Shown here in pieces: positions 7,446 through 32,246 of a stretch of 64,000 bases of DNA. The stretch covers positions 1 to 64,000 of the forward strand of contig NZ_QTZO01000007.1 in assembly GCF_004025585.1 (NCBI RefSeq), read 5' to 3'. The notes under the pieces were generated by a model. That model had not been told where the DNA came from. It saw only the letters and a list, made by a program, of their open reading frames with translations, and made no database searches. This DNA is from Pseudodesulfovibrio sp. S3. Lineage in GTDB: Bacteria; Desulfobacterota; Desulfovibrionia; Desulfovibrionales; Desulfovibrionaceae. The stretch's first letter is position 1, and every line of letters starts with the position of its first letter. Made by a program: the position numbers and the translations under genes.

Positions 7446-7518
7446 CATGTAAGTCAAAGAAGATAGGCAAACTCCTCTTCCCGTTTGCATGAACAATTTA
7501 ATATTTGGAGGCAACACA

Positions 7519-8025
7519 ATGTCCAAGAAAAACATCACAACTTCTGCTCTGGCAATCGCTCTTGTTCTGAGCATGGCCGCATTTGCCGTGGCCGGTCCCG
7601 GTTATGGCCGGGGATGCGGCGGTCCCGGTTACGGTCCCAACAGCGCGTATGTCCCGCTGACCCCTGAGCAGCAGGCTGCCGCAGATCAGATTGTTGAAAA
7701 GTACGATGCGCAGTTCGACGAATTGCGCGATCAGATGTGGACCAAGCATTCGGTCCTGCAGGCCATGATCAACGGCGGCAACGCTGATGAGAAGAAGATC
7801 GGCAAGCTGACATCCGACATCTCGGCCCTGCGCAATCAGATGTGGGACCTGCGCAATGCCATGTCCGCCGAATTGGTCAAGGCGGGTGTCCCTGCCGGAA
7901 GAGGCTTCGGTAATTGTCAGGGCTACGGAAGATTCTCCGGCGATGACGACGGCCCCGGTTACGGCAGAGGCATGGGCCAGGGCCGCGGATACGGCCATGG
8001 ATATGGTCCCGGAATGATGAACTAG
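7519..8025 (+). CDS. zraP: ZraP-like periplasmic metal-binding/chaperone protein
   Basis: A 168-residue exported protein with a signal peptide (hydrophobic residues 8-24, cleavage near AVAGPG). The central helical part (LTPEQQAAADQIVEKYDAQF to DLRNAMSAELVKAG) is typical of the ZraP/CpxP/heavy-metal resistance family. Gly/Tyr/Arg-rich tails flank it (GPGYGRGCGGPGYGP, and GRGMGQGRGYGHGYGPGMM). ZraP of enterobacteria is a zinc-binding chaperone that dampens its cognate ZraSR system. The start at 7519 has GGAGG 7 bases upstream. A sigma-54 promoter with enhancer-like repeats lies upstream, and a histidine kinase/regulator pair follows downstream. The metal specificity here is not shown. Confidence 0.82.
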   Translation: MSKKNITTSALAIALVLSMAAFAVAGPGYGRGCGGPGYGPNSAYVPLTPEQQAAADQIVEKYDAQFDELRDQMWTKHSVLQAMINGGNADEKKIGKLTSDISALRNQMWDLRNAMSAELVKAGVPAGRGFGNCQGYGRFSGDDDGPGYGRGMGQGRGYGHGYGPGMMN

Positions 8026-8062
8026 ACGAGAAATGATTTTCCGTTAACCGGAAAACAGGATA

Positions 8063-8101
8063 TTGCGGGACAGTCGGTCATGTGCGCCGGTTGTCCCGCA
8101 A
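8063..8101 (+). terminator. Strong hairpin after zraP (possible attenuator or processing site)
   Basis: TTGCGGGACA (8063-8072) pairs perfectly with TGTCCCGCAA (8092-8101) around a 19-base loop. No T-run follows, so it may protect the 3' end or reduce read-through into the sensor genes rather than terminate fully. A smaller hairpin (TTTTCCG/CGGAAAA) precedes it. Confidence 0.5.
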
Positions 8102-8181
8102 GTTTCAACAGCGTAATCGTGTACGCCGGAGATACGACTGAGTGATGCTGAGGTCGTACAGTCACCCGAGGAGGATTCACT

Positions 8182-9000
8182 ATGTTCCGAAAAATTATAT
8201 CCCTGACCGCGCTCCTGTCTTTCATCGTCACGCTGATCACCAGCGTGATTCTCTACATTGTTCCCGAGGGCAGGGTGGCCTACTGGGCGGACTGGCATCT
8301 GTTGGGCATGACCAAGACGCAGTGGGGGGATACCCACACCACAGTCGGAACGTTGTTCCTCATTGCCTTGCTCCTGCACATTTGGCTCAACTGGAAGCCG
8401 CTCATGGCCTATATGAAGAACCGGGCCCGCGAGACTGTGGTCATGACCGCGCCCATGATCATCAGTTTCATTCTGACGTTCGTGGTGTTTGCCGGCACGC
8501 TGGCCGGGTTGCCGCCCATGCAGCAGTTGCTCGATCTGGGCGCACAGATCAAGGACGAGGCCACCGAGACCTACGGGAATCCGCCCTACGGCCATGCAGA
8601 AACCAGCCCACTCAAGAAATTTTGCGGATTCCTCGGACTGGACGTGGAAAAGGCCCTGGCTTCCCTCTATGCGGCCGGATACGACACGTCCATCAATGAG
8701 CAGACCCTGGTGCAGGACATTGCCCGCTCCAGAGGCGTCAGCCCGCAACATGTGTTCGACGCCATCCGTGCCGGGCAGGGCATTAATCCGTTTGAAATGA
8801 TGCCCCCGCAACCTCCCGAAGGTACCGGCAAGCTGACGATCTCCTCTTTGTGCACGAGTTATGGACTGGATCAGGGCGCAGTCCTGAGCAAGCTCGAGGC
8901 CGCCGGCGTGGAAGCCACCCCCGAGAGCACGCTCAAGGACCTTTCCGACACGATCGGAGGCTCGCCCAAGGACCTCTATCTGCTCATCAGGGAACAGTAG
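8182..9000 (+). CDS. DUF4405-type membrane protein with two cytosolic or periplasmic repeats
   Basis: A 272-residue protein starting after a strong GAGGAGG site. Three membrane segments lie at about residues 8-27, 52-70 and 88-113, with His residues (WHLLG, HTTVG, LHIWLNW) characteristic of the DUF4405/cytochrome b561-like fold. The rest is a soluble tail containing two related blocks of about 50 residues: PLKKFCGFLGLDVEKALASL to SPQHVFDAI, and TISSLCTSYGLDQGAVLSKL to SPKDLYLLI. Each has a Cys before GLD and ends in GxSP. The gene precedes the kinase by 9 bases and probably belongs to its operon. A role as an accessory sensor or redox component is possible but not shown. Confidence 0.75.
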   Translation: MFRKIISLTALLSFIVTLITSVILYIVPEGRVAYWADWHLLGMTKTQWGDTHTTVGTLFLIALLLHIWLNWKPLMAYMKNRARETVVMTAPMIISFILTFVVFAGTLAGLPPMQQLLDLGAQIKDEATETYGNPPYGHAETSPLKKFCGFLGLDVEKALASLYAAGYDTSINEQTLVQDIARSRGVSPQHVFDAIRAGQGINPFEMMPPQPPEGTGKLTISSLCTSYGLDQGAVLSKLEAAGVEATPESTLKDLSDTIGGSPKDLYLLIREQ

Positions 9001-9009
9001 CGGTACGCC

Positions 9010-10857
9010 ATGGATGTCGTTCATCCGGACGGACGGGAAAAAGGCCCGCTGGTCGCCCTGGTCCTGGCACTCATCGTGCTGGGACTGGGGAGTCTCTATC
9101 TGACGTGGCAGTCCATTGCGCAGCAGCGCAGGATTGTCGAGGATCATATGATCATGACCGGCAATTCCATCCTGCGCGGCGTGGATAACAACATCCTTCG
9201 CATTGCCCGCACCGTGCATATGGGCAGCCAGTCGTCCGCACTTTTCCTGGCCATGACCGAAGAGCTGTTCACCGAGCTTGCCAAATCCGAGGACATCGAG
9301 TTCGTCACCCTGTTCGGCCTGGACGGGCAGCCCCTGGTCTCCTCGGTCAAGGAGGGCATCCATCCCATATTCAAACTGCCCGACCTGGTGACCAACGATA
9401 TCGAACCGGGCCGGGCCTGGCACGTCATGGCCGAGGTGAACAAGACGAACGTGCTCATTTCGGGACTTCAGGTGCGGTCTGACATAGCGGCCCTGACCGG
9501 ACTGGTCCCTCCGGGAGGGCTTAACGGTCATAGCCAAGGTCGCAATCAGGGCCAGGGCCGTGGATTGGGCCGGGGCATGGGGGCGGGCATGATGCATGAA
9601 AAAGACGACGCATCGCTTGTCTTTCTTGTGGTGGGTCTCAACGCGGAAAAACACATGCGCCAGTTCAGGCAGTATCGGCAGGCCGCCACCTACCAGACAG
9701 GATACGTGTTTCTGGCCGCTGTGGTGCTCTGGTCGCTGGCATTCGCCTATCTGCGGCGCAGAGGTGCCAGTCGGAAGCTGGTCCGCCTTGAGCGGTTCCA
9801 GAGCAAGCTTCTGGACAATATGCCCGACGGACTGGTCACCCTGGCCGAAAATGGGGAGGTCATGGCCGCCAATCATTCGGCCAAGAAATTCCTTGCCCCC
9901 GAGGGGGACGGGCCTGCGCCCGAGATCATCGGGGCCAACTGGCATGATATCGCCTTTGGCCGTCATGCGGGTGAGAACGGTTTGTCCGTGCCCTATGAGT
10001 GGGAGCAGTTCGACTATCAGGGCCGTCAGCTTGAGATTCTGTCCCTGCCATTTCAGGAACACGATGAAGACGCAGCCCCGGAATTGGGGCAGTTGTTGGT
10101 TCTTATCCGGGACCGTACCGAGATACGTTCCCTTGAAGAGGATTTGAACGAGGCCAAGCGGCTGGCCGCCATAGGCTCCCTGGCCGCGGGCGTGGCCCAT
10201 GAGGTGCGCAATCCGTTGAGCGCTTTGCGCGGCTTTGCTCAACTGTTCGCCACCAAGCTCAAGGGGCAGGCCCCGCTGGATCAGTACGCCACGGCCATGG
10301 TCCAGGAAGCGGACCGACTCAATCGAGTGGTCACGGACCTGCTCTATCTGGCCCGGCCTCGCCAGCTCGATCCTTCGTATATCGATCTCGCCCTGGTGGG
10401 GGACTCGCTCAAGCAGCTCATGCGCTTTGATTTTGCGGACAAGCAGATCGAACCTGAGTTCGACTTCGGGCCGGACCCGGTCTTTGCCGACCCGGACGCC
10501 CTCAGGCAGGTGCTGCTCAACCTGATCTCCAACAGTCTCGATGCCATTCACGGGTGCACCGACTGCGACAAGCCCGGACATATCCACCTGACTTCTGTGC
10601 GGGACGGCGGCGGAATCTGGATCACCGTGGCCGACGACGGTCCGGGGATGAACCCGGATATTCGCGACGAGGTGTTCAAGCCGTTCGTCACGGGCAAGAA
10701 AACCGGCACGGGGTTGGGCCTGGCCATTGTTCAGAACATCATGCGCGCCCATAGGGGGCGGGTGATCATCGAGTCCGAGCAAGGATACGGGACGGAAATG
10801 AAACTGTTTTTCCCTGATGTCAATGAAGGCGACAAAGAAGGAACGCATCATGATTGA
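9010..10857 (+). CDS. zraS: Sensor histidine kinase, ZraS/NtrB-like
   Basis: A 615-residue membrane kinase. Segments at about residues 15-33 and 230-250 bracket a periplasmic sensor domain; a PAS-like domain follows (SKLLDNMPDGLVTLAENGEV), then the phosphoacceptor box (AAGVAHEVRNPLSALRG) and an ATPase domain with N box LLNLISNSLDAI, VADDGPGM and GTGLGLAIVQNI. Near residues 175-200 the sensor region has a Gly/Arg/Met-rich patch (GRGLGRGMGAGMMHE) that resembles the tail of the ZraP-like protein encoded upstream. The stop overlaps the regulator start by 8 bases, so the pair is translationally coupled. The symbol reflects family resemblance only. Confidence 0.88.
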   Translation: MDVVHPDGREKGPLVALVLALIVLGLGSLYLTWQSIAQQRRIVEDHMIMTGNSILRGVDNNILRIARTVHMGSQSSALFLAMTEELFTELAKSEDIEFVTLFGLDGQPLVSSVKEGIHPIFKLPDLVTNDIEPGRAWHVMAEVNKTNVLISGLQVRSDIAALTGLVPPGGLNGHSQGRNQGQGRGLGRGMGAGMMHEKDDASLVFLVVGLNAEKHMRQFRQYRQAATYQTGYVFLAAVVLWSLAFAYLRRRGASRKLVRLERFQSKLLDNMPDGLVTLAENGEVMAANHSAKKFLAPEGDGPAPEIIGANWHDIAFGRHAGENGLSVPYEWEQFDYQGRQLEILSLPFQEHDEDAAPELGQLLVLIRDRTEIRSLEEDLNEAKRLAAIGSLAAGVAHEVRNPLSALRGFAQLFATKLKGQAPLDQYATAMVQEADRLNRVVTDLLYLARPRQLDPSYIDLALVGDSLKQLMRFDFADKQIEPEFDFGPDPVFADPDALRQVLLNLISNSLDAIHGCTDCDKPGHIHLTSVRDGGGIWITVADDGPGMNPDIRDEVFKPFVTGKKTGTGLGLAIVQNIMRAHRGRVIIESEQGYGTEMKLFFPDVNEGDKEGTHHD

Positions 10858-12238
10858 AGATCGTATTGCCCTCATCGTCGATGACGAACCCGGCCACAGG
10901 ATGATGGTTCGGGCGGTGCTGGAAGAGGACAGGTGGACCGTCCTTGAGGCTGATTCCGGAGAGCGGGCATTGACGGTGCTGGCCGAGGAGGCCGAGTCGG
11001 GAACCTACCCGGACGTGGCCATGGTGGACATGAAGATGCCCGGCATGGACGGGATGCAGCTGCTCAAGGAATTGCAGATCCGCAGACCGAGTATGCCCGT
11101 GGTCCTGCTGACCGCGTTCGGCTCCGTGGGCAGTGCCGTGGACGCCATGAAGCGGGGGGCCTTCGACTACCTGACCAAGCCTGCGGACAACGACGAACTG
11201 ACCGCCGTGCTCGGCAAGGCCTACGAATATCACAAGCTGTTGGACGAAAACGCCCGCCTCAGGGCCGAAGTCGGCAGTGAGCCGGATTTCATCGGCACCA
11301 GTCCGGGCATCGAGCGGGTCCGCGATCTCATAGGTCAGGCCGGGCCGTCCGAGGCCACGGTGCTCATCCTCGGGCCGAGCGGAACCGGCAAGGAGCTGGT
11401 GGCCGAAGGGCTGCACCGGGCGAGCAACCGGGCGGACAGGCCGCTCATCAAGGTCAACTGCGCGGCCCTGCCCGACGATCTGCTGGAGTCCGAACTTTTC
11501 GGCTACGAAAAGGGAGCGTTCACCGGCGCGGTCAAGGACAAACCCGGCCGGTTCCAGTTGGCGGACGGCGGCACGCTTTTCCTGGACGAAATCGGGGAAA
11601 TGCCCGGCGCGCTTCAGGCCAAGCTGTTGCGAGTCCTTCAGGAAAAAACCATCGAACCCCTGGGATCGGTCAAGACCATCCAGGTGGACACCCGCATCAT
11701 CGCGGCCACCAACCGCAATCTGAAAAGGGAAGTGGAGGCCGGAAGGTTCCGCGAAGACCTGTATTATCGGCTGGCGGTACTGGAGATCCGTATCCCGCCA
11801 CTGAACGAACGCAAGGAAGACCTGCCCCTGTTGGTCAGTTTCCTGTTGCGCCGCCTGGGCAACAAGAACAGCAAGATCATCCGCACGGTGACCCCTGCCT
11901 TTCTCGACGCCCTGTCCGGGTACGACTGGCCCGGCAATGTCCGTGAATTGGAAAACGTGCTGGAGCGGGCCTTGATCCTGTCCCGTTCCGATGCGCTCGG
12001 TACGGACCTTTTGCCGCCCCAGATATCCGGTGCACGTGAGGACGGTATCATGATGGACATGGTGCACATCGTCCCGCCACAGTCCAGTCCGGCCAATCTG
12101 GAAGAGGCTGAGAAGCAGGCCATCATTCAGGCCCTGGAAGAGAACGGCAACCATCGCGAACGCACGGCGGACGCCCTTGGAATCAGCCGTCGCACGCTCC
12201 AGTACAAGCTCAAGAAATACGGATTGACCCGAAGATGA
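10850..12238 (+). CDS. zraR: Sigma-54-dependent response regulator, ZraR/NtrC-like
   Basis: A 462-residue three-domain activator. The receiver domain (about 1-120) has the phosphorylatable Asp in [10 protein letters not shown] and the conserved Lys in LTKPAD. The AAA+ domain has Walker [10 protein letters not shown], the sigma-54 contact loop GAFTGA and Walker [14 protein letters not shown]-terminal Fis-type helix-turn-helix reads [19 protein letters not shown]. The start at 10850 is preceded by AAGGAA and gives a normal N-terminus ([12 protein letters not shown]). Its likely targets are the sigma-54 promoters at 7428 and 22166 with nearby TGTGCA clusters. Confidence 0.92.
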
Positions 12239-12248
12239 GTTCGATTCT

Positions 12249-13577
12249 TCAGGTTCCGGTTTCTATCAAGGGATTATCCGGTTCGGTGGCGTCGAAATGG
12301 GCTCCCAGAAGACTCTTTCTGGTTTGGTAGGACATGAAGTCCAGGATGTCCGTGCCCGGGGTGCTGATATAATCGAAGATGAAATCGATCAGCGTGCTTC
12401 GAAGCTGGCAGAGATCTGATTTGACTCCCTGACTCTGGCCCTTGTTTATGGCGGGCAGCGGGCAGTTGGCACCGCAGATCTGTCTGTAGGCACAGTCGCT
12501 GCACCCGGGGATATCCTTGACATTGCGCCGGGGAAAGATCCGGTTGTTTTCACTGTGCAGCATCTCCAGGAGATCTTCCTCAAAAATGTTGCCCAAGGTG
12601 ATGTTCTGGTTGGATATTCCTCCTGAGCAAGGCCAAACCTGCCCGTTGGGACCTATGACGACCAGCAGGCTGCCCGCGCCGCAGGGGCTCATTTCGCAAT
12701 AACTGGAAGATCGATTGGTCAGTATTGAAAGCGATAACGATTCCATGTGGTTTATGAATAGGGGATGGTGCGGATCGTTTCTTGTCGTGTCCAGCGCATA
12801 CCCGACGCATGACAGATACGTCGAAATAACGTCCTCCATGGGGGCCATGTGTTCGGCGGCATCGTCCGTGTAGGGAGTGATCGGGTTGAGCGTCAGGCTG
12901 GATACGCCTATGGCGTGGAGCTTTTTGATCAACGTTGGGACCGTCTTGACATTGAATTTTGACAGGGTGACGAGAATGTTTGGTGAACAGCCGTTGGCGC
13001 ACATGTGCCCAATGGATTGAATTACCCTGGAGTTGTCCAGTCCCTGTCTGACGGGACATTTGCCCGAGAGCGTATCGATCGAAAATCCCACATCAATCTG
13101 TCTGGAAATGAAAAAATCCAACTGGCGCTCATTCAGGATCGAGCCGTTGGTTTGCATGACGAATTTGAAATCCGCCCCATACTCGGTGATGATTTTTTTG
13201 ATCATCTCGTAATGGAGTGTCGGCTCGCCGCCATGGAGATTGATGGCCGGGCGCTTCCCCGTGATTTTCGAGTAGCCGTCGATTTTTCCCAGTATGAATT
13301 TCACATCGGCATAGGCAAGCTGCGTGGGTTGCCGCTTGAGGCTGTTGGGGACATAGCAATATCGGCAATCGAGATTGCACTTGTGAGATATGTGCAATTC
13401 AACCAGATCAAGACGCCTGTTGGCCCTGTCTCGCTGTATGGCGTCCTTTCGCTCTCGTATTTGAGCCTCGGAAAATCGGAATCGGACTGCTTCGCTGTGC
13501 GAATCGGCAATGACCCAGGACAGGCTGTCCGGTTCAAGAACAAGAAATCCCTTTTTGAGTTTTTTGATATGCTTCAT
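12249..13577 (-). CDS. Radical SAM/SPASM peptide-maturase-like enzyme
   Basis: A 442-residue protein. The radical SAM cluster motif is CNLDCRYC (with ELHISHK before it) at about residue 70, followed by NLHGGEPTLH. A C-terminal SPASM region supplies the auxiliary-cluster cysteines (MSPCGAGS, WPCSG, CSDC, CGANCPLP, CQLR). The first 60 residues (LKKGFLVLEPDSLSWVIADS) form a short N-terminal domain. The architecture matches enzymes that modify ribosomal peptides or mature proteins such as sulfatases and quinohaemoproteins. No sulfatase is nearby; an 88-residue His-rich protein is encoded 38 bases upstream and is the obvious candidate substrate. The start at 13577 was chosen over 13697 because the extra residues look non-coding and overlap the upstream gene. 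The gene converges on zraR. Confidence 0.85.
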   Translation of the reverse strand: MKHIKKLKKGFLVLEPDSLSWVIADSHSEAVRFRFSEAQIRERKDAIQRDRANRRLDLVELHISHKCNLDCRYCYVPNSLKRQPTQLAYADVKFILGKIDGYSKITGKRPAINLHGGEPTLHYEMIKKIITEYGADFKFVMQTNGSILNERQLDFFISRQIDVGFSIDTLSGKCPVRQGLDNSRVIQSIGHMCANGCSPNILVTLSKFNVKTVPTLIKKLHAIGVSSLTLNPITPYTDDAAEHMAPMEDVISTYLSCVGYALDTTRNDPHHPLFINHMESLSLSILTNRSSSYCEMSPCGAGSLLVVIGPNGQVWPCSGGISNQNITLGNIFEEDLLEMLHSENNRIFPRRNVKDIPGCSDCAYRQICGANCPLPAINKGQSQGVKSDLCQLRSTLIDFIFDYISTPGTDILDFMSYQTRKSLLGAHFDATEPDNPLIETGT

Positions 13578-13615
13578 GGGGATACTTCCCCCCTCCGCAT
13601 GGAGGGGGGCAGGAG

Positions 13616-13882
13616 TCAGATTTTTTTGATTTTGGTGTCCAGGATCGAAGACATCTGTTTGATGTCTTCGATGCCGACGGCGTCTTTCACCGTCCAATAG
13701 AATTGTTCCACCTGTTTCTTGATCTCATAGACTTCGGCATCGGTCTTTCCCTTTGCAACCGTGTCGATCAGATCCCCGATGTCCCTGAGCAATACGCTGT
13801 TCGCCGTGTGGTAATGCCCGTGACCGTGGGCAACCCGGAGTTGCCCCCCCTCGCTGACAAGTTTAAAACCAGTGACTGCCAT
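13616..13882 (-). CDS. Small His-rich protein, candidate substrate of the adjacent radical SAM enzyme
   Basis: An 88-residue protein with an excellent ribosome site (AAAGGAGG, 5 bases before the ATG at 13882). Its N-terminal part carries a His/Gly cluster, VAHGHGHYH, at residues 17-25; the rest is charged and helical (DLIDTVAKGKTDAEVYEI, KKQVEQFYWTVKDAVGIED) and ends in Lys/Ile. No signal peptide or known domain is recognised. The position directly before a SPASM maturase suggests a RiPP-like precursor or a protein modified at His/Tyr, but it could equally be a metal-binding partner. Function unknown. Confidence 0.7.
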   Translation of the reverse strand: MAVTGFKLVSEGGQLRVAHGHGHYHTANSVLLRDIGDLIDTVAKGKTDAEVYEIKKQVEQFYWTVKDAVGIEDIKQMSSILDTKIKKI

Positions 13883-14066
13883 GTTGACCTCCTTTCGGGT
13901 TGGTTTTTGGGGTGACCATACATCGCCTGTTGAGTTGTGTATAGGTTTTTTGTTATTTTGTGGACAGGCAATCACAAAAGACACTTCAGCCCCTGACAGG
14001 GGCGATTGTTCGAGTCGGCAGACGGATACAGGCGTACGGGGTCCTTTGACCCGAAGATGGCCGAGC

Positions 14067-15242
14067 TCAGCCCAGGGCCGAGGCCTTGATCTCGTCGATG
14101 CGCCGGAGGTAGTCCGTCCGGTAGAGGGGACCGTTGTCCGTGAACTGCTCGGCGGTCTTCCTGTGCGCGTCGCACCATTTCGCCAGCATTGGGTTCCTGG
14201 TGATGCGCCCGTAGTTCTTGATCATGTGCAGGGTGTTGTGGCAGACCGGCATGAGATGCCCGGTCCCGGCCAGCAGCGGGGTGTAATCCGTTTGCAGATC
14301 CATGAAGAACGCGCCCACGGCCTCGGCCCAGGGATAATTGCCGGTCGAGGCGAGCTTTTGCAGCATGGCGTCCTCATCCATCCGGCTCGGCTGCCATGGC
14401 CGGTTCCATTCTTCGGGTACGGTTTCGTCGGCGGCATAGGCGATTTCGCCTGTTTCCATGAACTTCGCTATCTTCCCGGCCAATTTCGGCCACATGGAAC
14501 CGATGTGTTCCATGTCCCGGCTGGCATGCAACCCGGTAATGACCTCGTTCGTCTCTTCCAGCGTGATCTTGAGAAACGGGCAGTGCGTTTCGATGCGCTG
14601 TTCGGTTTCGGCCCAGATGCCTCCGAAAACGCGGTCCATATCCAGCACGTGGACCTTGTCCAACCCTCTCTGCCAGACCCGGTAATGGGCCGGAGCCTCC
14701 CGGCTCAGTTTGTTCCAGTCCTCAAGATAAGAGTATGGGTTGGGACCGAATGCGGGGAAGTGGGAGAGGCGCGAAACCACGACTATGGGCACGTCGGGGA
14801 ACCGGTCCCTGACCAGTTCCAGGAATTGGCCGTACCGCTTCAGATAGGTTGTCGGGTTGGGTTGGATCATGCCGCATTCGGCATTGAGCCACGCCTCCAG
14901 TTCCGGCTTGTCCTGCCAGGCCGCCGGGTCCATGAAGAAGATATACCGGTCGCGGTTGTGGACGAAGAGCGGGGTGTTCTCGTGGAACAGGTTCATGACG
15001 ATGAGCGACGGGGACGCGTCCTCGGGCGTGATCATTTGATACTGGTTTTCGGGCAGCCGGTCATGGAAGAAGTCTTGCAGCTTCATGTCGCGGACCAGGC
15101 GGTTCAGCCCCGGCGGCACCTGTCCGGGGTGGCTTGCATAGGTCAGCGGCGAGGCGAGGACGCGATAGGCGACATCAAATCCCAGGGCCGCCATGGCCCG
15201 GCTCAGGAAATCCATTTGACAGTTGCCCAAAAAGTACAGCAT
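14067..15242 (-). CDS. WcbI-like (polysaccharide biosynthesis putative acetyltransferase) protein
   Basis: A 391-residue protein whose N-terminus, MLYFLGNCQMDFLSRAM, matches the start of the WcbI domain (PF18588), a GDSL-like fold found in capsule-biosynthesis proteins. Other notable parts are PLTYASHPGQ, FMDPAAW, and a C-terminal half without recognised motifs. The start at 15242 fits the family and has AAGGA upstream. A GTG at 15287 with a very close GAAGGAGG site would add 15 residues. It is divergently transcribed from the hydrolase at 15309. No other capsule genes are present. The substrate is unknown. Confidence 0.6.
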   Translation of the reverse strand: MLYFLGNCQMDFLSRAMAALGFDVAYRVLASPLTYASHPGQVPPGLNRLVRDMKLQDFFHDRLPENQYQMITPEDASPSLIVMNLFHENTPLFVHNRDRYIFFMDPAAWQDKPELEAWLNAECGMIQPNPTTYLKRYGQFLELVRDRFPDVPIVVVSRLSHFPAFGPNPYSYLEDWNKLSREAPAHYRVWQRGLDKVHVLDMDRVFGGIWAETEQRIETHCPFLKITLEETNEVITGLHASRDMEHIGSMWPKLAGKIAKFMETGEIAYAADETVPEEWNRPWQPSRMDEDAMLQKLASTGNYPWAEAVGAFFMDLQTDYTPLLAGTGHLMPVCHNTLHMIKNYGRITRNPMLAKWCDAHRKTAEQFTDNGPLYRTDYLRRIDEIKASALG

Positions 15243-30605: not shown

Positions 30606-32246
30606 CTATTTATCCAGCATGGTTTCCATGCCGCACATCCGGCATGTTTTGCAGTCAATGGATGGGCAGCCGGGTGAAACTTTGGCTTCCTTGGCCTTTT
30701 CCCATTCCTTCCAGAGAAATTCGCGCTTTACACCGATGTCCACGACTTCCCATGGAAAGGCTTCGTCATGGCCGCGTTCCCGGTCCAGGATGTCGGCAGG
30801 GTTGCCATTCCAGAGTTTGAGCGCTTTTTTCCAGCCCCCCTGGTCTGCGGCCAGGAGGATGAATTCGGCCAGATCCTCGCCGCCCCTTGCGAGCAGACCC
30901 TGGAGGCGGGCCTGGAACGGGTTGTCGTGCTGCAAGGTGACGCCCTTGAAAGGCTTGGCCATCTTGACGAGTTGCTTCATGCGGGCTTCCAGCGCCTTTT
31001 CGCCCATCATGGGGGACCATTGAAACGGGGTGAAGGGCTTGGGCACCAGGGAGCTGATCCCGATGGTGATGCGCATGAACTGCTTTTTCCTGCCGCCCGG
31101 TTCCTCGCTTCGGATGCGCACGATCTCTTCGAGAAAAAGGGCGAACTCCTCGTAATCTTCGTCGGTTTCACCGGGCCAGCCGATTATCATATAGAGCTTG
31201 AGGTGGTTTACGCCGTAGCGTGCGCAGAGCCGGACTGCGTTCAGGAAGTCCTTGGGGTCGAGCTTCTTGCTCATCATGCGCCGGAGCCGCTCCGAAGCCC
31301 CTTCCAGGGCCAGGGTTATGGTGCGGATGCCGCATTCGCGCAGGTACATCAGCAATTCCTCGGTGATGCCGTCGGCGCGCATGGAGGAGAGCGAAAATTT
31401 TTTCTTTTTCCCGTTCAGCCACTTCAGGAACGCGAGCAGGTCGGGCCAATCCGTCAGGGCCGTGCCCACCAGTCCGACTTTGTGCGGGTCGGTCAGTTCC
31501 ACGATTCGTTTGAGCTCGTCTATTTCGGCCAGGCGGGGAGGGCGGTATATGTATCCTGCGGCGCAGAAGCGGCAGCCGTAGGGACATCCCCGGTTCACTT
31601 CAAGCAACATGGTGTCGCGGAAGGCGGCGTGCCCGGAAATGAAGCAGGAGAATGCCGGGTCGAGCAGGGGACCTGTTTCGCCCGTGGAAATGCGTTTGAC
31701 CGGGGTTTTGGATCTGCCCGGCACATATACGCCCGGCATATCCTTCACCGTATCAAGAATGACTTCCTTGTCCCGGCCGTCAAAGACCAGTCGTTTCAGG
31801 CTGTCGAAGAAATTGATGAAGCGGTCTTCGGCCTCGCCCACCCAGAAGCAGTCCACAAATGGGGCTATGGGGGCCGGGTTGAGAAACGCGATCGGGCCTC
31901 CCGCAATGACCAGCGGGAGAGAAGGGCGTTCCGCCGCAAGAGGCGGAACGCCCGCCGCCCGGAGCGTTCGAGGAAGGCTGAGGAAGTCCTCCTCGAACGT
32001 AATGCTCCAGGCTATTACAGGGAATGAGGATAGTGGGCTGTTTGATTCGCGTGTTCTTGGTTCGGCTCCGTCGGTCAGTCCCAGCTTGTCCGGGAAGACA
32101 CGTTCTACGGCCAGGCCGGGTTCCTCGGTCAGCGTCCGAAATACGGCTTGCCATCCGAGAGCGGATATGGCGGCCTTGTCGCCTCCGGGAACGGTCAGCG
32201 CAACAGGCAGCCGTCCTCCGAGGTCGGGAGCTACAGGCTCCGACAC
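30606..32246 (-). CDS. Radical SAM protein (B12-binding-like N-terminus, TIGR03960/YgiQ-like)
   Basis: About 546 residues. The N-terminal half resembles a Rossmann-type region (FPVIAWSITFEEDFLSLPRTL, VIAGGPIAFLNPAPIAPFVD) followed by the cluster motif CPYGCRFC in LLEVNRGCPYGCRFCAAGY. The C-terminal part contains KLYMIIGWPGETDEDYEEF. A Cys-rich end (CPSIDCKTCRMCG) may bind another metal or cluster. The only in-frame start in this area is a GTG at 32246 without a clear ribosome site, so the start is uncertain. It follows ftsZ by about 60 bases. Its substrate is unknown. Confidence 0.8.
   Translation of the reverse strand: MSEPVAPDLGGRLPVALTVPGGDKAAISALGWQAVFRTLTEEPGLAVERVFPDKLGLTDGAEPRTRESNSPLSSFPVIAWSITFEEDFLSLPRTLRAAGVPPLAAERPSLPLVIAGGPIAFLNPAPIAPFVDCFWVGEAEDRFINFFDSLKRLVFDGRDKEVILDTVKDMPGVYVPGRSKTPVKRISTGETGPLLDPAFSCFISGHAAFRDTMLLEVNRGCPYGCRFCAAGYIYRPPRLAEIDELKRIVELTDPHKVGLVGTALTDWPDLLAFLKWLNGKKKKFSLSSMRADGITEELLMYLRECGIRTITLALEGASERLRRMMSKKLDPKDFLNAVRLCARYGVNHLKLYMIIGWPGETDEDYEEFALFLEEIVRIRSEEPGGRKKQFMRITIGISSLVPKPFTPFQWSPMMGEKALEARMKQLVKMAKPFKGVTLQHDNPFQARLQGLLARGGEDLAEFILLAADQGGWKKALKLWNGNPADILDRERGHDEAFPWEVVDIGVKREFLWKEWEKAKEAKVSPGCPSIDCKTCRMCGMETMLDK
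31924..31953. repeat. Perfect 12-bp inverted repeat inside the radical SAM gene
   Basis: GGGCGTTCCGCC (31924-31935) is exactly complementary to GGCGGAACGCCC (31942-31953) with a 6-base loop. It sits in codons for AAGVPPLAAERP. No T-run follows, so it is unlikely to be a terminator. Confidence 0.7.

Follow-up and report, generated by a model that had tools for sequence, protein, structure and literature searches.

A radical SAM/SPASM enzyme paired with a small His/Tyr-motif protein in Pseudodesulfovibrio sp. S3: a candidate precursor/maturase module related to CbpA/CbpB

Radical SAM enzymes whose targets are the side chains of His and Tyr include HaaB, YhhB and the dynobactin enzymes (PMC11002830), and HxsB is named among annotated enzymes in PMC9062424, whose main text does not name CbpB. 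The locus considered here is a gene pair in DNA of Pseudodesulfovibrio sp. S3 (contig NZ_QTZO01000007.1, positions 1 to 64,000; the window is this whole stretch of 64,000 nucleotides), in which a gene for an 88-residue protein bearing the motif HGHGHYH precedes a gene for a radical S-adenosylmethionine (SAM)/SPASM enzyme. With a probability of about 0.68, the two genes form a precursor/maturase module in which the 88-residue protein is the dedicated substrate and is modified at its His/Tyr cluster, probably by cross-linking. The pairing, the conservation, the cysteines, the predicted type of fold and the likely mobility were read from the sequence. In the openly licensed literature no published work on the pair was found, nor any paper on the CbpB and CbpA models (TIGR04163 and TIGR04164), on HGHGHYH or on GLSHYIL, nor one that treats a cobalamin riboswitch, a radical SAM enzyme and a modified peptide together.

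The gene pair and its counterpart in a second genus

Both genes lie on the minus strand, the small gene at 13616-13882 (start ATG at 13882) followed after a gap of 38 bases by the gene for the 442-residue enzyme at 12249-13577 (start ATG at 13577). A strong ribosome site, AAAGGAGGTCAAC, lies directly 5' of the small-gene ATG (13883-13895, minus strand). This arrangement had been described in an earlier account made from the letters of the DNA (the sequence-only reading), and the coordinates and Pfam domains agree with it: the enzyme matches radical SAM PF04055 with 50.1 bits (cut-off 29.5; residues ~63-216) and SPASM PF13186 with 37.3 bits (cut-off 21.5; residues ~299-362). The cysteines of its CNLDCRYC (CxxxCxxC) motif are C67, C71 and C74, and eight more occur in the C-terminal region (C294, C299, C317, C359, C362, C368, C372 and C390). 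All 11 are invariant across 24 aligned enzymes, and the eight C-terminal ones would be able to ligate two auxiliary clusters; the enzyme model is a close structural match to the anaerobic sulfatase-maturating enzyme anSME.

Enzyme matches at E <= 1e-40 were found in three genomes among 148 relatives, that of the window included. One of these, G102, belongs to the same family but to another genus; its enzyme is 39-40% identical to that of the window and is directly preceded by the gene for an 89-residue protein that is 42% identical to the window small protein. The third, G103, encodes an enzyme of CbpB type together with a peptide resembling CbpA. The cluster V17-A-H-G-H-G-H-Y-H25 noted by the sequence-only reading near the N-terminus is present, and its HGHGHYH part (residues 19-25; 13808-13828, minus strand), the putative site of modification, is identical in the G102 homologue. 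Kept in both proteins are G5-F-K-L-V-S10, G13, L15, V17 and H19-G-H-G-H-Y-H-T26, a shared pattern of GFKLVS-x2-G-x-L-x-V-x-HGHGHYHT that spans residues 5-26 of the window protein, GFKLVSEGGQLRVAHGHGHYHT, after which a three-helix region is predicted. Identity is concentrated there, with 18 of 26 N-terminal residues identical against 19 of the remaining 62 (Fisher p 0.0018, the N-terminal cut having been picked after the alignment was seen). At 11 of these 18 identical residues the codons differ, with synonymous differences in 4 of the 7 codons of HGHGHYH, and therefore the conservation, as judged from the two genes, acts at protein level and peaks at the motif.

Alignment of homologues and co-occurrence, two of the checks proposed at the outset, both came out in favour of the pairing: the two members of the enzyme subfamily are each adjacent to the small gene (2/2 genomes), and no genome has one without the other in the two that have either. 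The flanks of the G102 pair are unrelated to those of the window pair. On one side stands a divergent gene set, which we take to be an agmatine deiminase pathway and of which a carbamoyltransferase, an amino-acid permease and an amino-acid kinase family gene are nearest; on the other a major facilitator superfamily gene, present in G102 only, starts 72 bases downstream of the enzyme. None of these flanking genes was seen near the window pair, and no gene beyond the pair itself was seen to be common to the two loci. Because an adjacent homologous pair occurs in another genus, the pairing appears to be more than chance.

A sulfatase maturase assignment had been named among the outcomes that would overturn the proposal. 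As a rival explanation, the enzyme might be an ordinary sulfatase maturase or an orphan SPASM enzyme that happens to have an unrelated small gene next to it. The score against the anaerobic sulfatase maturase model TIGR03942 is 109.5 bits, far from the cut-off of 349.45, and adjacency with a co-conserved partner is kept at a different genomic place in G102; this explanation is highly improbable and the sulfatase maturase assignment was rejected. Viperin was rejected as well, the PADLOC match (68.3 bits) covering the radical SAM core only.

The predicted fold and the independently placed G102 pair both support the peptide-maturase type that had been suggested. The enzyme model resembles the maturases CteB (PDB 5WGG/5WHY) and TigE (8VPO) of ribosomally synthesized and post-translationally modified peptides (RiPPs) over nearly the full length, N-terminal region included, although sequence identity is only ~17%, and their substrates are presumably other than that of the window. 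Residues 1-52 look like a RiPP recognition element (RRE) in the model, and the predicted beta3-alpha2 N-terminus falls within the CteB and TigE alignments. The small protein was correctly described as lacking a known domain, neither Pfam nor NCBIfam giving a match at E <= 1. It has no PADLOC match at E <= 0.001, a sole PHROG match of 14.6 bits (E 0.067, function unknown), only weak matches to PDB sequences (best E 0.19) and nothing at E <= 0.001 in the fold search. The structure model has a mean pLDDT (predicted local distance difference test) of 63.7, and its C-terminal part is predicted to be helical. Cysteine is absent from the window protein and occurs once in that of G102 (C18).

These features bear on whether the small protein might be a partner or chaperone, such as a PqqD-like carrier, with the true substrate encoded elsewhere. 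Its length, a perhaps folded state and a C-terminal part that is predicted helical would suit such a role, but it has no Pfam match and hence is no PqqD, the enzyme seems from its model to have an RRE-like domain of its own, the His/Tyr cluster is the most strongly conserved part of the small protein, and no other gene common to the two loci was seen. We regard a carrier role as quite unlikely.

Relation to CbpA/CbpB

The best NCBIfam model for both pair enzymes is CbpB, which scores 193.5 bits on the window enzyme and 220.4 bits on that of G102. Both lie below the curated cut-off of 375. At E <= 1e-112 the CbpB model matches 22 of the 24 rows of the enzyme alignment; the window row is not among them, and the G102 row is, judged by its score, the other that does not match. 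The CbpA model matches neither the window nor the G102 small protein.

A profile of the pair enzymes at E <= 1e-40 found 34 genomes besides that of the window among 395 drawn from the phylum. The cbp loci read also number 34, made up of 30 of those genomes (G103, read as L004, included) together with L005-L008, with G554, G384, G594 and G601 left out. These more distant relatives have a different short peptide next to CbpB in 34/34 of the loci, with 32 distinct peptides in all. Its core GL[SA]H[YF] takes the form GLSHY in 31, GLSHF in two and GLAHY in one, always with an upstream Cys, and this core is absent from the window small protein.

Of the 34 cbp loci (L004-L008 and L099-L127), 32 have a cobalamin riboswitch (RF00174) on the same strand as the genes (16/18 and 16/16), the other two being L104 and L105, where it is absent from the piece examined. 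Its place beside cbpAB suggests that CbpA may concern cobalamin or cobalt. None was found at the window pair or the G102 pair.

The phylogenetic trees join the window and G102 enzymes (support 100/100) and leave them outside the rows of CbpB (98/99, and 92/90 in the second tree). The fork joining pair and CbpB has a support of 92/73 in the first tree, where a single long outgroup row comes in between the two, and it is open in the second tree, from which nine long outgroup rows were dropped and in which CbpB itself has 92/90. The trees do not settle CbpB as the sister of the pair enzymes.

The pair could be a divergent CbpA/CbpB system, with the same chemistry at the same His-aromatic pair, a precursor that has diverged too far to be recognised and no riboswitch any more. 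The shared best model, the alignment of the N-terminal regions of CbpB and the pair enzymes, and a His followed by an aromatic residue in both substrates (HYH; GLSHY/F) all fit this explanation. Set against it are the scores below the cut-off, the failure of the CbpA model on both small proteins, the want of a counterpart in the window protein to the invariant Cys of CbpA, the absence of the riboswitch at both pairs and two trees that each place the pair outside CbpB; the H-Y match is also one of two letters only. We consider it possible but on the unlikely side. Membership of CbpA/CbpB as such was rejected (193.5 bits against 375, a different substrate, no cobalamin riboswitch), and the pair is better described as a Cbp relative that is separate in enzyme, in substrate and, it seems, in control.

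Insertion site, neighbouring genes and rarity

The pair occupies an insert at 12239-14066 between two convergent genes, one for a sigma-54 response regulator and the other for a 406-residue protein without Pfam family, which begins GNCQ and which we take to be WcbI-like. Neither a peptidase nor an exporter adjoins the pair within the window, as the sequence-only reading had remarked. Syntenic relatives were taken as those of 36 genomes of the genus in which matches to the regulator and the 406-residue protein lie <5 kb apart on one contig, of which there are 14; G032, with a partial regulator match (residues 11-298) 3.5 kb from the other match, was excluded. All 14 lack the small gene as well as any match to the enzyme at E <= 1e-40. 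The bases between the two flanking matches number 8-19 in seven, 105-242 in three and 1.5-4.9 kb in four (L168-L171), the last holding lipoprotein-like and hydrolase-like frames and other fragments, presumably RHS-like. The G+C of the window pair genes is 51-52% against 58-62% in seven neighbouring genes, and that of the G102 pair genes is 61-64% against 69% for the region. These sequences suggest that the two genes travel together and that the pair is probably mobile.

The junction between the regulator and the GNCQ protein (12238-14067 of the window, and L168-L175) serves the genus as a cargo site, its content varying by species from nearly empty to RHS-like fragments or other genes. The GNCQ-protein matches in six relatives (L130-L132 and L134-L136) are each flagged with one in-frame stop; in two of these, G006 and G024, a 391-residue open frame begins a few codons further on.

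In a row at 7489-12238 lie genes for a heavy-metal-resistance protein (PF13801), a DUF4405 protein, a sensor kinase and the sigma-54 response regulator. With this operon next door, the small protein might be a metal-homeostasis accessory of it, the His cluster buffering zinc or another metal. A regulator homologue at E <= 1e-150 is however present in 35 of the 36 genus genomes and the small gene in one of them, the flanking matches are <=242 bases apart in 10 of the 14 syntenic relatives, and the surroundings of the G102 pair showed no operon of this kind, so that a metal-accessory role is very improbable and was rejected. Since the pair is absent from the 14 syntenic relatives, has unrelated flanks in G102 and is lower in G+C, the metal-resistance two-component operon is most likely an accidental neighbour.

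Between the two genes a G+C-rich hairpin (13588-13609, minus strand; stem 9 bp, loop 4) holds in its 3' arm the GGAGG that precedes the enzyme start. Its folding, in an 81-nt piece, was equalled by 5 of 200 shuffles (z -2.1), and a stem at the equivalent place in G102 was not better than shuffles (z -0.2, 66/200). The window hairpin could mask the ribosome site of the enzyme and so favour the small gene. A consensus scan of the minus strand from 12150 to 14150 found no sigma-70-type promoter.

The small-protein profile was found in 2 of 288 genomes of the family, 1 of 395 in the phylum sample and 2 of 348 of the order, sets that overlap, so the rarity holds for the sampled genomes. The family tally was at first 5/288; three weak matches (E 2e-4 to 5e-4) were dropped because at each locus another frame, presumably prolyl-tRNA-synthetase-like, lies on the opposite strand. 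No close relative of the pair was found in viral contigs, where one distant partial match (L094) is 30% identical and a DNA match to the motif (L097) was rejected as lying within a short unrelated frame, and no small-protein relative was found in plasmids and phages. A first scan of genome contigs found no relative. A second had at least 80 distant SPASM enzymes among the matches listed (20-28% identity in the best segment), and these may have displaced a closer pair from the listing.

Proposed mechanism and comparison with known systems

As a precursor/maturase module, the pair would work as follows. The enzyme would bind the 88-residue protein through its N-terminal RRE-like domain, a 5'-deoxyadenosyl radical would be generated at the cluster held by C67, C71 and C74, and the two auxiliary clusters would serve oxidation of the substrate in its conserved N-terminal segment, most likely within HGHGHYH. 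The product would be a cross-link through His/Tyr side chains, such as one joining H-x-H or H-Y-H neighbours. Substrate, modified site and cross-link chemistry are what we infer from the locus.

Several points weigh against this proposal. The known members are only two, and the RRE assignment is based on a predicted fold, no RRE being found in the N-terminal region of the enzyme in Pfam or PDB sequences. Confidence in the structure model of the small protein is low, and the fold search gave no significant match to it. HGHGHYH also stands near the N-terminus of an 88-residue protein with a predicted helical C-terminal part, a layout unlike the usual leader-then-core precursor peptide.

A core invariant in two members would argue for a product of fixed function over a diversifying antibiotic. 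Because of that core, and because no exporter or protease is linked to the pair in the window, our guess is that the product binds metal or is a small redox or metal-handling protein and not a secreted antibiotic. A further-reaching and rather doubtful version would have a mobile two-gene system whose SPASM enzyme, by cross-linking or other rewiring, turns the HGHGHYH loop of a small, folded and uncleaved protein into a new built-in metal-binding or redox site, and which together with CbpA/CbpB would form a radical SAM branch devoted to His-aromatic motifs in metal or cofactor handling and not to antibiotics.

The kinship with CbpA/CbpB, the RRE-like N-terminus and the insertion history go beyond the sequence-only reading. 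The pair would add to SPASM chemistry a substrate family without Pfam or NCBIfam model, in which, unusually, the substrate is protein-sized and its invariant His/Tyr core sits close to the N-terminus. It also points to CbpA/CbpB as a common, mostly riboswitch-associated relative.

HxsB (TIGR03978) is the second-best NCBIfam match of the enzyme, at 119.2 bits and so below the cut-off of 370. Like the window enzyme it is a SPASM enzyme, and its substrate is presumably also His-bearing; unlike in the HxsB system, the window substrate has no His-Xaa-Ser repeat and the nearest further match to radical SAM in the genome begins ~17.5 kb off, at window position 31131. Compared with HaaB, YhhB and the dynobactin enzymes, the window enzyme is remote in sequence, with weak matches to the YhhB (69.9 bits; cut-off 445) and NCBIfam dynobactin (95.4 bits; cut-off 450) models. 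The nearest likeness is to CbpA/CbpB, with which the pair shares the order of small peptide then enzyme, a homologous enzyme that includes the N-terminal region, and a substrate in which an aromatic residue comes directly after a conserved His. CbpA is however short and has its motif near the C-terminus, whereas the pair substrates have 88-89 residues, the motif near the N-terminus and no conserved Cys.
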